Positions 16,876 to 62,714 of a stretch of DNA of 64,000 nt are shown here, piece after piece. The stretch comes from Dysidea avara. Its lineage: Eukaryota > Porifera > Demospongiae > Dictyoceratida > Dysideidae. The first letter of the stretch is position 1, and the number at the start of each line of letters is the position of its first letter. The notes below the pieces were generated by a model. The model ran no database searches. It was not told where the DNA came from and saw nothing but the letters and a program-made list of their open reading frames with translations. The translations under genes were made by a program, and so were the position numbers. The stretch spans positions 11,931,479 to 11,995,478 of the forward strand of contig NC_089278.1 in the NCBI RefSeq assembly GCF_963678975.1, in the 5' to 3' direction.

Positions 16876-19800
16876 ATGGCATCTTTTAGTGGCGCTTTAA
16901 AGCTTGTCGACCTTGACGACTTTATTACTCCTTCTCAAGTGAGTTACAACACTGCCCGTGTTCTACATGTACTTACTGATACTGACTCTGAGAATCTTGA
17001 GACTGACTCTTGCACAGAGTCTCTAGACATTGATTATTACTTCATGATACATGTGATAAGACTAATTTTGTACTTTATTTTGCAGGAATGCATAAAGCCA
17101 GTAAAGATAGAGAAGACTTCAGATAAGGTATCAACTTATTGTCATTTGCTACATGGTACCGGTGTTCTGAAGAGGTTTTGAATTGTGGTTGTATGTTGTC
17201 TGAGGACTTCACATGCTCATTTTTGTTTTTTTACTCACATTTTTCTCATCTGATGATGGTCATAGACTATCAATTAGTTTGCCCTGTCATCCCCTTATGG
17301 AGAAGGTGGAGAATAGGAGGGGTCTATAAACCAGTGTTCCTTATGTACACATTTCTCCTCCTGAGAAATTACCAGCAAATATGTGCATTCAAAAACACTC
17401 ACGGTAGTGAGTTGCATGTAAAAGTGCATACCGCAAATAATTTAAGCACAATCAGGTATTTACATATAGCAACGACTGCAATTCTTACCATAATTCACAT
17501 GATCTTCACCATGTTAAATTCCTCAGCTCAAGGATATAATCAACCTGATACCAGAGAATATTGATTTGCTCACCTAATGCAAGGTAAATGCTGAGGAACT
17601 TGTGCACACCCCGATTAGTTGGAAATTGTTTCACTACAAGTTTTGAAATTACGAAGCCATACAGTTTAATTTTCTTGACCTCTCCTATTGGTATTAACAT
17701 CATTAGTGCAGTAATATACTGCAAAGTGCTAGCTAGCATAAGTGGTAACTGGTATTTTAGTAGTTTTCTCATGAAGATGCCACCTGGATTCCACATAATA
17801 ACTTTGGTACAGCTACCATATACACTTAAAGGAAATTCTGATTTTGTAGAAGGAGATATATATTAAACATAAGATCAATTCAACCCATGGGCTTTGGGAA
17901 GTCTAATGCCAGGCATCTCAAGAGTGTAATGCTTAATGATTCTACCCAGTGAAGTGCAACTCAATCATCAAAGCAGCAAAAGAGGAATATTATATAGTGG
18001 GACTTGCCGCTTATACTATGTACCAAGTTGAGCAGATATTCTTCCAGGAGAGGAGAAGACTAGTACCCTGCCAATGAAACTCATGTAGTGTTACCAAATC
18101 ATTCAGCGCTGTGTGATGGACTTTGCTAGCTTGCCAGATCAAAGCCTGGTTTGTGATAAACCGGAGAGATTAGTTAGATAGTTTACAATACAAATCAAAA
18201 GTACATTATTGCTACTATATTAACCACAAGTAATAGTAATTGAAGACGGTTACATTTGTATGCTCCAGTAGAATTATTTACAGTATAAATTATCTTTATG
18301 AGCTTCAGTTATGGTCACTCCCGATGCAGATTTAGCAACAGTGAAGTGGATGCTCGATTAGAGTATTTCTGACTGTTCTATTAGAGTATATCGATCCACA
18401 CTACAGTGTATGTAAACTTTTGCTAGTAAAAAAGCTACTGTACACAAGGAAATTTTGACGTCAAAAAAGTTTAACGAACCGTTTTAATTCATCAAATTTA
18501 AATTTGTCAATTGTTTATTAGCGCCTTTAAAAGTACAGGTTTTGTCTACAATTTCTTGATTTTCGTCAACATTTTATTCGTCAAATCCGCTGAAGTGTGA
18601 ATTTGTCAAAGTTTTCTTACGTCAAAATTTCCTTGCGTACAGTACATGTAATAATGAAATTAGCTATCATACCTCTATCTGATGTTAGTAAAATCCTTCA
18701 TGCAAAACAGATTAGCTGTACAAAAAGGGAGTGTCCAGGAAAGTAAAAGTGACCTGCAACTAAACAAGTTGATGTTGTGCTACTTCTAAAAACCAGGCGC
18801 CATGCAGCTAGCTAACTCATCTGAAATGTATTAATCAAGTATATGTGCAATAATACATAATTAATTTATTATAATTCTCGTAATTCACGAAATTTTGTAA
18901 TACTTCAATTACGTTGCTATGCGCTGCTAAGGAAGCGCTTGTTAAAACAAACCGCTTTTATCAGCACTTTACGCACAGAAGTATCTTCTAAACTGTTTTA
19001 TAGTTTGACTATCGTGTTTTTTCCCACAAATTCTCTCGACAAAGCCTCAAAACTGCTCTCCATTTTCGTACGCGTAAGTAGGGGGTACGCCCCCTTTCCA
19101 ACTCGAAGGGATAGGCTATTCCTGGTAGTCTACGAAGCCTGCACAGTTGTTTTTCAGTTGTTAAACACTTGTAAAACCCGAAGGGAAGGTAATTCACGAA
19201 ATCGGAGGAAAGTCACCACACCCGTATTTCAGACCGCCGAAAAGAAACCACCTCAGAGCAAAGTTTACCTGTGCGGAAGTTTACTACAGACTTCATTTAA
19301 CTTTTACTTCTTACGTAAAAGCTGCTTTTTCATTTAATGATTTTGCTCACGTGGGTGTGTACAGACAACATAGGTAGATAGGTAGGTACACATGTGCACA
19401 CACACACACACACACACACACACACACACACACACACACACACACACACACACACACACACACACACACACACACACACACACACACACACACACACACA
19501 CACACACACACACACTTTTACGAAAACAATTTCAGTATGACATCTGGTGTGGCTAAGAATGATTGCAACTAACTATATTTTGCAACAGTCTAACATCAGT
19601 CCTTTATCATTGACTTATGCAGTCTTGCTGCATTCTATAGGCTGCCTATTTCCTATACTGACTATTGAAAAAAGCAGCTAAATTACAAAGCAAGACTGCA
19701 CAAATTAGATTATTCATTCTTGGCCATGCCAGATGTCACCTTTTTAATTAGTTGCCAGTCACTTTACTCTCGTGGACGCTCCCTTTTTGTACATCCAAGA

Positions 19801-60495: not shown

Positions 60496-62714
60496 TAGAA
60501 AGATAGTAGTAGCTACAGTACAGTTGCAGTTTTATCTTAAGACATGGGCAATAAAGAGTGAGAAGAAAAGAGCTAATCTCTTCTAGGAATCAACAAGAGG
60601 GGAAATCAAAATACTCTAATAGGACAGTCAACTACTCTAATAGAACATCCATCATTATTTTTTTTTTAAAAAGAACCAAGACCAACTCCTAGACCCCTTA
60701 AACTTCAACTTGAACTCAAACCATACTTCACCATTTATGCTATGCCCTTTATATGAAAGCTATAGTTACCACTGCTAGAACTTGTTAAAGTGGCTCACAA
60801 TGCTTAAGGTTCAGTCAATATTATTGCCATACAAATTTGATCTCAGAAAGCTAAATTTACAAAAAAAAATTCTGTGAGGGCATGCCCCAAGATGCCCTAT
60901 ACTCCTCATGCTGAATGTGCTCACACTGCACTAGTATCAACCAGTTGCTACATTGTTTTTAGCCCCCCACTATAGATGCCACTAGCCTAGCACTCCCCCC
61001 CCCCCCCCCCCTTGGGAAATCCTAGACCCACTCCTGGTATATATCTATGCAGTATGGGAATGATAGATCCCTACAGTACAATGTTTCTTATACGCAGCTA
61101 TTATTTCAATCGTGATTCTCACTTTGTTCTGAAATTGCAACACTTGATAGTCTGGCGGTGGGTCGCTTTTCTCAAATAAGCAGCATGACCCATCCCAGAG
61201 ACACAGTTGAAATAAGAGACCTTGTTGTATGCCATGACATAGGCCATATGTTGGAAAATCCCTCTTTGGTTTGTAGTTATAATTAGCTAGCTATGCCATG
61301 ATATAGGATCATGTCTCTTGTTTCACTACCATAGAAATTTTCATGGATTACCAAAATGTAGTGGAATAAATTTTTGTGGTTGAGACATCAATCTCTATAC
61401 AACTTGTGATAAAACGTCCACACGAAATCCACAAAAATTTGTATCCCTACCTTACAGTATTTCATATTGCATGGGCCCTACTGAATTAATGATTTTTAAA
61501 TATACTAGTGTAATATACTAGTGTTTATACTTTTTCTTTATAGCTGTATAGTATATCTACTTATGAGCTGTGGCTGCTTTATTAGAACACCACGACAATC
61601 TACCTGACTGTTATATTAGGGTGACTACTCTATTAGGGTATTTTGATCACAGTTTGAAACAACCAGATCTCAGATTAGGACATTACACACGACAAATTAC
61701 TGAAAGTGTGGTCATTATTCTCAGTTATTTGTAGCAAAACTGATTGCACAAAGTGAAACAATCTAGTCCTTTTTAAGCACTCCTAATAATTCTGTGGTGA
61801 CTGTCTCTATACACAACCAATATGAAAAATTACTGTCTTGGTACAGAGGAGGTTGGTCATGTGTCATAGCCCTATGACGTACTACTACGTGTGATTGCAC
61901 AATAAAAACATGATGCCTGAAATTAGCATCGTTATTATGAAGTCTTTTGTCGCATTTTCAAGAAGTATGCATTATGTAGTGTTTGTTTCTTGATTATAAA
62001 AGCCACACAAAGTGTTGGGCAGCTGAAAGAAGGGCTCGTAGTTTATCGATATCAATTCACACATTAGAATACTTTATATCAATACTGCTGAGGTGTCGAG
62101 GTTGAATGGGTTGAACTTTGAGATCATGAGAAGTTTGATGATGCGTGACCGACCTCCTCTGGTCTTGGTATGGTTTATCAAACAGTATGGTACTACTGTT
62201 TAGTATAGGGGTCCCCCCCTAAAGATGGGTGTCACTAACAATGCCGTGTCTAAAAACCATCATAGAAATACCATATGCACTGAAACTTACCTTTATAGAA
62301 TAGTCTTACTCCATTCAACAAACAAATACAGCATTGAAAACAAGAAAACACAGGCGGCGGAGACATTAATTTTTCTTTTTTTGACGCTTTCCTTGAAGGA
62401 GCATATTTAGATGCCATGAAACTATTTGAGGTGCTTATCAGACTGTAGTATCCCTGGTATTGGATAGCAGTTAAGCTGGGGTTATAAAATGATTGCAATG
62501 GACCATACTCCCTTAAACGATAACCTTTTTTGTTAGAACATAGCAAAAATACACATGTGGCTATGACTGCTGTATTAGAGTATCTCGATCTCACTACTTC
62601 AGCTACACAGTAGATGGGTGTGGCACAATGCGTTGTCTTCTACGGTGCTAGATTGCTGAGGGGTGTGGCCTCAGCACTGATTGTTAGAGGTTTGCTGGCA
62701 TGTTCCGAATCTAA

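Follow-up and report, generated by a model that had tools for sequence, protein, structure and literature searches.

hAT transposases bind subterminal repeats, short repeated motifs inside DNA transposons that are specific to one transposase. The motif considered here, a 20-base unit (TGACTGCTCTATTAGAGTAT) often repeated in tandem, comes from a stretch of 64,000 nucleotides of the sponge Dysidea avara (NC_089278.1, positions 11,931,479 to 11,995,478 of the forward strand; this whole stretch is called the window). Unlike subterminal repeats, it is common to families of miniature inverted-repeat transposable elements (MITEs) with target duplications of 2, 5-6, and 8 bp, and the autonomous pogo copies compared with them lack it. 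Short cis modules are usually thought of as belonging to a single family; this one is carried by MITEs of all these duplication lengths and amounts to ~94,000 near-exact units.

A nearer parallel exists in Caenorhabditis elegans, where the CERP2 and CELE2 MITEs hold m1m2 motif pairs bound by HIM-17 (PMC9757741). There, m1m2 is likewise a short motif pair inside MITE families, present in more than one family and in tandem in one, and its genomic copies far outnumber active promoters. Yet m1 and m2 are two different motifs in MITEs described as related, with binder and promoter activity experimentally shown, whereas the sponge motif is one unit repeated, resides in families with differing target duplications, and is known here from sequence alone. 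By analogy, m1m2 and HIM-17 offer a precedent for paired MITE motifs bound by a host protein. SIRC (short interrupted repeat cassettes) of Arabidopsis are comparable in another respect, as their authors suggest that these short direct repeats originated as internal structure of MITEs whose terminal repeats were later lost (PMC10342631). SIRC repeats are interrupted by diverse DNA and are not one sequence, whereas in the sponge one sequence runs across families. No description of the motif was found in the open-licence literature on sponge MITEs and repeats or on motifs common to unrelated transposable elements. The account that we think probable is that the motif represents a tandem module resident in many unrelated MITE families, swapped between them at the motif itself, and kept by the putative binding of a host protein.

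A module inherited within several MITE types

The first-pass annotation of the window had reported a dispersed motif recurring about 20 times in both orientations, with several close pairs. That description was sound, as scanning found a unit no more than about 6 bases from each of the 22 positions that it gave, and scanned units occur on both strands; the units at 18347 and 38720 were missing from its list. At up to 5 mismatches to the 20-mer, the window holds 25 units at 16 places spanning 18347-62583. The core 11-mer with at most one mismatch gives 24 matches against 0.95 expected, a number reached by none of 100 shuffles, and the 20-mer with at most 3 mismatches gives 14 against 0.01. Throughout the assembly (550.8 Mb, 108 contigs) there are 27,345 exact copies, nearly equal between strands (reversed control 0), 94,083 copies with at most 2 mismatches (reversed control 1), and 4,254 exact direct dimers with a linker of 0-15 bp (control 0). 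Because these genome counts far exceed expectation, the motif cannot be dismissed as no more frequent than expected, and a chance origin was rejected on the shuffle tests in the window together with the reversed controls genome-wide. Outside the host, the 20-mer had no match in viral contigs and none in genome contigs, collections with hardly any animal DNA; shorter words (17-mer, 6 viral and 15 genome contig matches; 19-mer, 6 viral) hit scattered bacterial and viral records once per locus, as chance would give. Given the make-up of these collections, the result has no bearing on relatives of the sponge.

Within a unit the core is TGACTGYTCTATTAGAG, and the final unit of a place is often extended by TATCTCGATC. 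At least two units stand together at 8 of the 16 window places and at 56 of 105 sampled places, a sample partly picked for exact copies (49 single, 45 double, 8 triple, and 3 with four or more). Units in that sample are spaced by 17 bp (15 cases), 20-23 bp (17), 25-28 bp (34), or 31-34 bp (6), and the linker of direct dimers varies from family to family. A satellite or minisatellite was rejected for want of long head-to-tail arrays, only 3 of 105 places having four or more units. One local array, at L050 3377-3500, has 25-bp spacing and the linker TTGAC and was counted as 6 units.

The motif pair is present in more than one MITE family, including pogo-like elements, types with 8-bp duplications, and a CAGGGGCGGATCC type. 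Motif-bearing pogo-like MITEs have inverted repeats starting with CAGTGG and a TA duplication in both cases (window 41771-41993; L042 7241-7475). Elements with CAGGGCCGCCC ends show an exact 8-bp duplication in five of six, the sixth matching at 7 of 8 bases, and those with TAGGGACCC ends show an 8-bp duplication in two of two; among the eight 8-bp elements at L028, L029, L033, L039, L041, L043, L045, and L053 the duplication is exact in seven, and at L043 it matches at 7 of 8 bases. We presume these to be hAT-like from an 8-bp rule, a label not tied to a transposase. Elements with CAGGGGCGGATCC ends carry duplications of 5, 5, and 6 bp in three of four, with none seen in the fourth. Counted by end word over all loci, many of which were picked for holding the motif, it lies inside 6/7 pogo, 13/21 CAGGGGCGGATCCAG, 13/13 CAGGGCCGCCCA, and 4/4 TAGGGACCC cases; in the window and L047-L055 alone, pogo ends give 3/3 and CAGGGCCGCCCA 2/2, with no TAGGGACCC match.

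Copies retrieved without the motif in the query are the most informative in this regard. With the left 67 bp of the pogo-like MITE as query, 40 of 589 candidates were scored and 20 of the 39 others fetched, and the module lies at the identical place in all 20, even though L109 has lost most of one unit and L105 is damaged. Likewise, the left flank of a second family (family A; 40 scored of 1,299 candidates, 20 of 39 fetched) returned the motif in 19 of 20 copies, three of them with one unit instead of two. When 20 exact sites were taken blind from the first places listed on contig 1, with flanks unseen, 16 had a flank in common with another sampled site. The corresponding figures were 7 of 15 places in nine arbitrary loci and 2 of 12 in the window, by a library small enough that 56731 scored as unshared though it belongs to a large genome family. 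Several MITE types, distinct in their ends and target duplications, have inherited the module as an internal component.

The first-pass annotation had also stated that most sites lack a surrounding MITE, which is borne out only in part. In a genome-wide flank search covering 6 of the 16 window places, three (41834, 56731, and 62564) fall in multi-copy elements, and two (48668 and 61605) have flanks with no repeat match beyond a few short extensions. The sixth, 39820, merely adjoins a young repeat, its right flank being unmatched among 40 scored. The pogo-like MITE proposed at 41771-41993 does have its TA duplication, and a pogo-like end was found near 22225 where a truncated relative had been proposed near 22224. 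The family of 56731 (40 scored of 3,433 candidates) is 87-93 percent identical over window 56560-56783, and the apparent start of its element is a CAGGGGC at 56514. The repeat beside 39820 occupies window 39426-39813, has inverted ends of ~45 bp, and drew 1,834 candidates; of the 39 other places listed, 38 match its right end at 97-99 percent. It is judged young because its copies are so alike, and one match, on C3, spans the dimer too.

Families joined at the motif

Homologous flanks in every copy would have reduced the motif to a fragment of one ordinary element, and flanks do align family by family, although not across families. Clustering of 195 places (restricted to sites whose flanks run to 90 and 80 bases or more) gave 15 left and 18 right multi-member clusters, leaving 74 and 75 sites unclustered. 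No single element surrounds the motif. Left cluster 3 is joined to right cluster 6 at six places and to right cluster 7 at two, and left cluster 0, which is family A, is joined to right clusters 1 (16 places), 5 (7), 9 (3), and 13 (3), with 7 unclustered. In all six pairs drawn between right clusters 6 and 7, the left flanks score 111-205, in each case more than any of 200 shuffles, and the right flanks score 42-50, equal to the shuffle mean. Similarly, within family A a comparison of right clusters 5 and 1 gives 173 on the left (null maximum 100) and 52 on the right (null maximum 70). Given that left halves are homologous, right halves are not, and the switch lies at the motif, these families are mosaics joined there, and a switch of homology at the motif is shown in at least two family sets.

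The same dimer may also stand in different flanks. Genome matches to 48668 cover chiefly its 40-bp dimer, though two extend another 26 bases leftward and one extends rightward. That dimer is 39/40 identical to copies of a third family (family C), and among 20 relatives fetched, 17 belong to family C, L197 and L199 share another left flank, and L198 and the window site stand alone. One linker variant is thus found in different flanks, in family C and in L197; the flanks of 48668, when aligned by eye with family C, showed no significance relative to shuffled sequences. At 61605, the 42 other matches are all confined to query positions 166-229; of 20 relatives, 17 have a common left flank and the right flanks form two groups of seven, with the window site a singleton on both sides. 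The sites at 48668 and 61605 are either decayed copies with an intact dimer or dimers moved without an element.

How the module may spread and persist

As the module has a fixed inner position in copies of the pogo-like MITE, of both types with 8-bp duplications, of the CAGGGGCGGATCC type, and of older repeat families, most young copies have travelled as passengers within MITEs that different transposases mobilize. The module would pass between families by exchange at the motif, through template switching or unequal recombination; mosaic neighbourhoods fit such transfer. It would persist as a putative site for a host DNA-binding protein rather than for any need of a transposase, and the protein might, for example, open chromatin in cells where MITEs jump. 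Constraint on particular positions, together with presence across MITE types, fits a host-protein site. In 154 kb not selected for the motif (window and L047-L055), 56 units divide as 8/15/10/3/11/9 by 0/1/2/3/4/5 mismatches, against a null of 0 units at up to 4 mismatches and 2.7 at 5. Mismatches concentrate at positions 4, 7, 9, and 20 and are sparse at 8, 10, 11, and 13 (chi-square 72.9, p 3e-8, related copies being treated as independent), a pattern that fits that of a binding site. Among the three origins offered by the first-pass annotation (a surviving transposase site, a protein-binding element, or a very short self-spreading repeat), we infer the protein-binding element to be the best remaining.

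Several observations weigh against this account. The strong contrast in the old family around 62564, with divergence from consensus of 0.026 at the site and 0.139 in the flanks, was obtained with the motif included in the query. A right-flank query (40 scored of 61 candidates, 20 fetched) yielded 14 copies with an alignable site, 4 with an unrelated left side, 1 deleted, and 1 ambiguous. In the 14 copies used for divergence (excluding L121, L124, L132, and L134 for non-homologous left sides, L135 as deleted, L119 as ambiguous, and the window copy, and drawing on none of the 20 fetched earlier), the motif diverges by 0.086, as against 0.126 in the right flank, which was the query, and 0.219 in the left 14 columns, and the windows of lowest divergence lie away from the motif. 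A first impression of very strong conservation was weakened accordingly, and extra conservation at the motif is modest at most. Moreover, the chi-square value counts kin copies as independent units, and spacing that varies from 17 to 34 bp disfavours one rigid complex across the pair. Among the MITE ends, only 2 of 7 CAGGGGCGGATCCAG ends in the arbitrary loci and window have the motif within 450 bp, and 70 of 73 rows of inverted-repeat candidates, in which nested palindromes are counted repeatedly, lack it; one of the three rows that have it is formed by two inverted motif copies. As for the mosaics, one left pair between right clusters 6 and 7 barely tops its null (125 vs 119), right clusters 5 and 9 score 80 against 73, so that some right-side likeness remains, and the switch of homology was examined at the motif position only. 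Finally, the comparison with autonomous elements is limited to pogo, with the 8-bp and CAGGGG types outside it, and those pogo elements have at most the first 12 end bases in common with the MITE; the four may therefore not be its partner.

The strongest competitor, to which we would give a real if clearly minor chance, is that the module is a functionless passenger, which got into a few MITE families accidentally, was amplified along with them, and, being already common, was recaptured by new MITEs. With ~94,000 near-exact copies it is common enough for capture by chance, in the flank-only sample it is only modestly less diverged than its flanks, and its dimers behave as tandem repeats do, collapsing to a single unit in 3 of 20 family A copies and expanding to arrays (L050 3377). 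Against such passivity are the unequal constraint among motif positions and the shape of the mismatch distribution in the 154 kb, where 3 units at 3 mismatches against 33 at 2 or fewer show hardly any tail of decay. The motif is moreover present in each of the three pogo-like MITE types seen, which makes chance capture unlikely unless these types share descent.

Two further possibilities are improbable, and we rate them alike. In the first, the dimer is a very short self-spreading repeat that inserts itself at new sites. The sites at 48668 and 61605 are what such a repeat might leave, each a well-preserved dimer with flanks lacking a long repeat match and a singleton on both sides among 20 relatives. 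However, the motif is an inherited part of the copies retrieved by flank for the pogo MITE and family A, no empty site or target duplication was found around a bare dimer (though these were not systematically sought), and two matches to 48668 reach 26 bases further upstream at 83-84 percent. One of these extended matches (L196) clusters with the flanks of family C, so 48668 may itself be a family C copy that has decayed. For most young copies self-spreading is not needed, because the module has a fixed place inside longer multi-copy MITEs; the blind sample (16/20 with shared flanks) and the two flank queries (20/20 and 19/20 with motif) bear this out.

In the second, one transposase moves all the families by binding the motif inside the elements. 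Some transposases bind tandem inner repeats close to element ends, and CAGGG-type ends are similar in many families. Target duplications nevertheless differ (2, 5-6, and 8 bp), no motif lies within 450 bp of 8 of 21 CAGGGGCGGATCCAG ends, and the motif is absent from autonomous pogo elements. A genome search for DDE_1 scored 150 of 835 candidates, several with long open frames, and no unit at 4 or fewer mismatches was present in any of four autonomous pogo copies of two families, two of one family with 2.6 kb between ends and 99.6 percent identical, and two of a second type with 1.9 kb. The surviving transposase site of the first-pass annotation is therefore unlikely, at least for pogo, because autonomous pogo lacks the motif and the motif-bearing MITEs differ in ends and duplications. 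The 2.6-kb pair, L156 (C15) and L157 (C8), has 555-codon frames, which with its near identity suggests recent activity.

It is barely credible that all sites arose by chance or as pieces of a single ordinary MITE family, as several window sites do lie inside MITEs but flanks fall in many non-homologous clusters and counts exceed controls by orders of magnitude.

Returning to a host-bound module, a wider form of the idea is possible but decidedly tentative: a host protein would have tens of thousands of putative sites, and several MITE superfamilies would each have taken up the site, and would trade it, for access to germline or replicating chromatin. If so, the site would serve unrelated parasites as a shared currency and would give the host a network of potential regulatory sites. 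Should a host protein bind, the genome would offer a natural experiment on the reasons why transposons of separate origin converge on a single host-facing site or trade it, and on the way in which regulatory networks are seeded by such sites. Should there be no binder, the module would be a record of modules travelling between transposon families by recombination.

Motif sites and neighbours in the window

Motif sites and associated elements (window coordinates)
Feature	Coordinates	Strand	Basis or remark
Motif dimer, then ATCGATC	18347..18389	+	Units 18347, 18370 by scan
Degenerate motif dimer, then ATTGATC	20983..21022	-	Units 21003 then 20983, scan
Single unit in pogo-like element with right end near 22225	22343..22362	-	Scan, end words
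Unit, 2 mismatches	37782..37801	-	Scan
Degenerate motif dimer	38720..38760	+	Units 38720, 38741, scan
Single unit; right flank similar to that of L037_5420	38860..38879	+	Scan, flank comparison
Motif dimer	39820..39865	+	Units 39820, 39846; few bases right of young repeat ending ~39812-39815
Single degenerate unit, 5 mismatches	40846..40865	-	Scan
Pogo-like MITE, 223 bp between ends CAGTGGAACCTC...GAGGTTCCACTG, TA duplications	41769..41995	.	Ends, alignment of 20 relatives
Motif dimer within pogo-like MITE	41834..41873	+	Units 41834, 41854
Motif dimer, flanks essentially without genome matches	48668..48712	+	Units 48668, 48693
Single unit, 4 mismatches	53587..53606	+	Scan
Unit, then CTCGATC; flanks similar to L035	56014..56033	+	Scan, flank comparison
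Repeat opening with CAGGGGC	56514..56783	.	Homology reaches 56764-56783 (query start 56560)
Sole exact 20-mer of window, within CAGGGGC repeat	56731..56750	-	Scan, genome search
Motif dimer	60611..60651	-	Units 60632 then 60611, scan
Three units, last two a 17-bp-spaced dimer	61571..61641	+	Units 61571, 61605, 61622, scan
Unit with full extension CTCGATCTC, within old repeat family	62564..62592	+	Genome search

The repeat at window 62250-62900, around the last unit, has modules that are inverted in other copies, resembling fold-back elements. In the window upstream of 18347 there is no motif unit at 5 or fewer mismatches; that part includes gypsy-like retrotransposon fragments at 689-4860, recognized by open-frame reading and with no unit inside, and broken frames at 8256-10066 resembling hAT transposase, with a weak match to the Hermes DNA-binding domain (E 0.00027). 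Elsewhere in the genome, a reverse transcriptase frame at L045 662-2062 (RVT_1, E 2.4e-35) has its 5' side 233 bp from a motif dimer, and the dimer region near this frame is also present in L030.

Other explanations of the sequence around the motif were considered. An RNA structure is unlikely, with no Rfam family at gathering threshold and weak folding in three of four sequences (z against shuffled sequences -0.32, -1.48, -2.60, and -0.04), and a tRNA-derived repeat was rejected, with no tRNA found in a scan using the bacterial code. Enrichment of k-mers near the motif revealed one weak 7-mer, TAAATTA, on the left side and no enriched word on the right.

Proteins encoded in the window include a CC2D1A/B-like one at 30073-33312 and RRM proteins, in keeping with an animal genome. 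Two distinct frames, at 49410-49533 and 54327-54549, have similar 21-bp tandem repeats encoding DHV-type heptads, and the frame holding the latter has a weak zinc-finger match.

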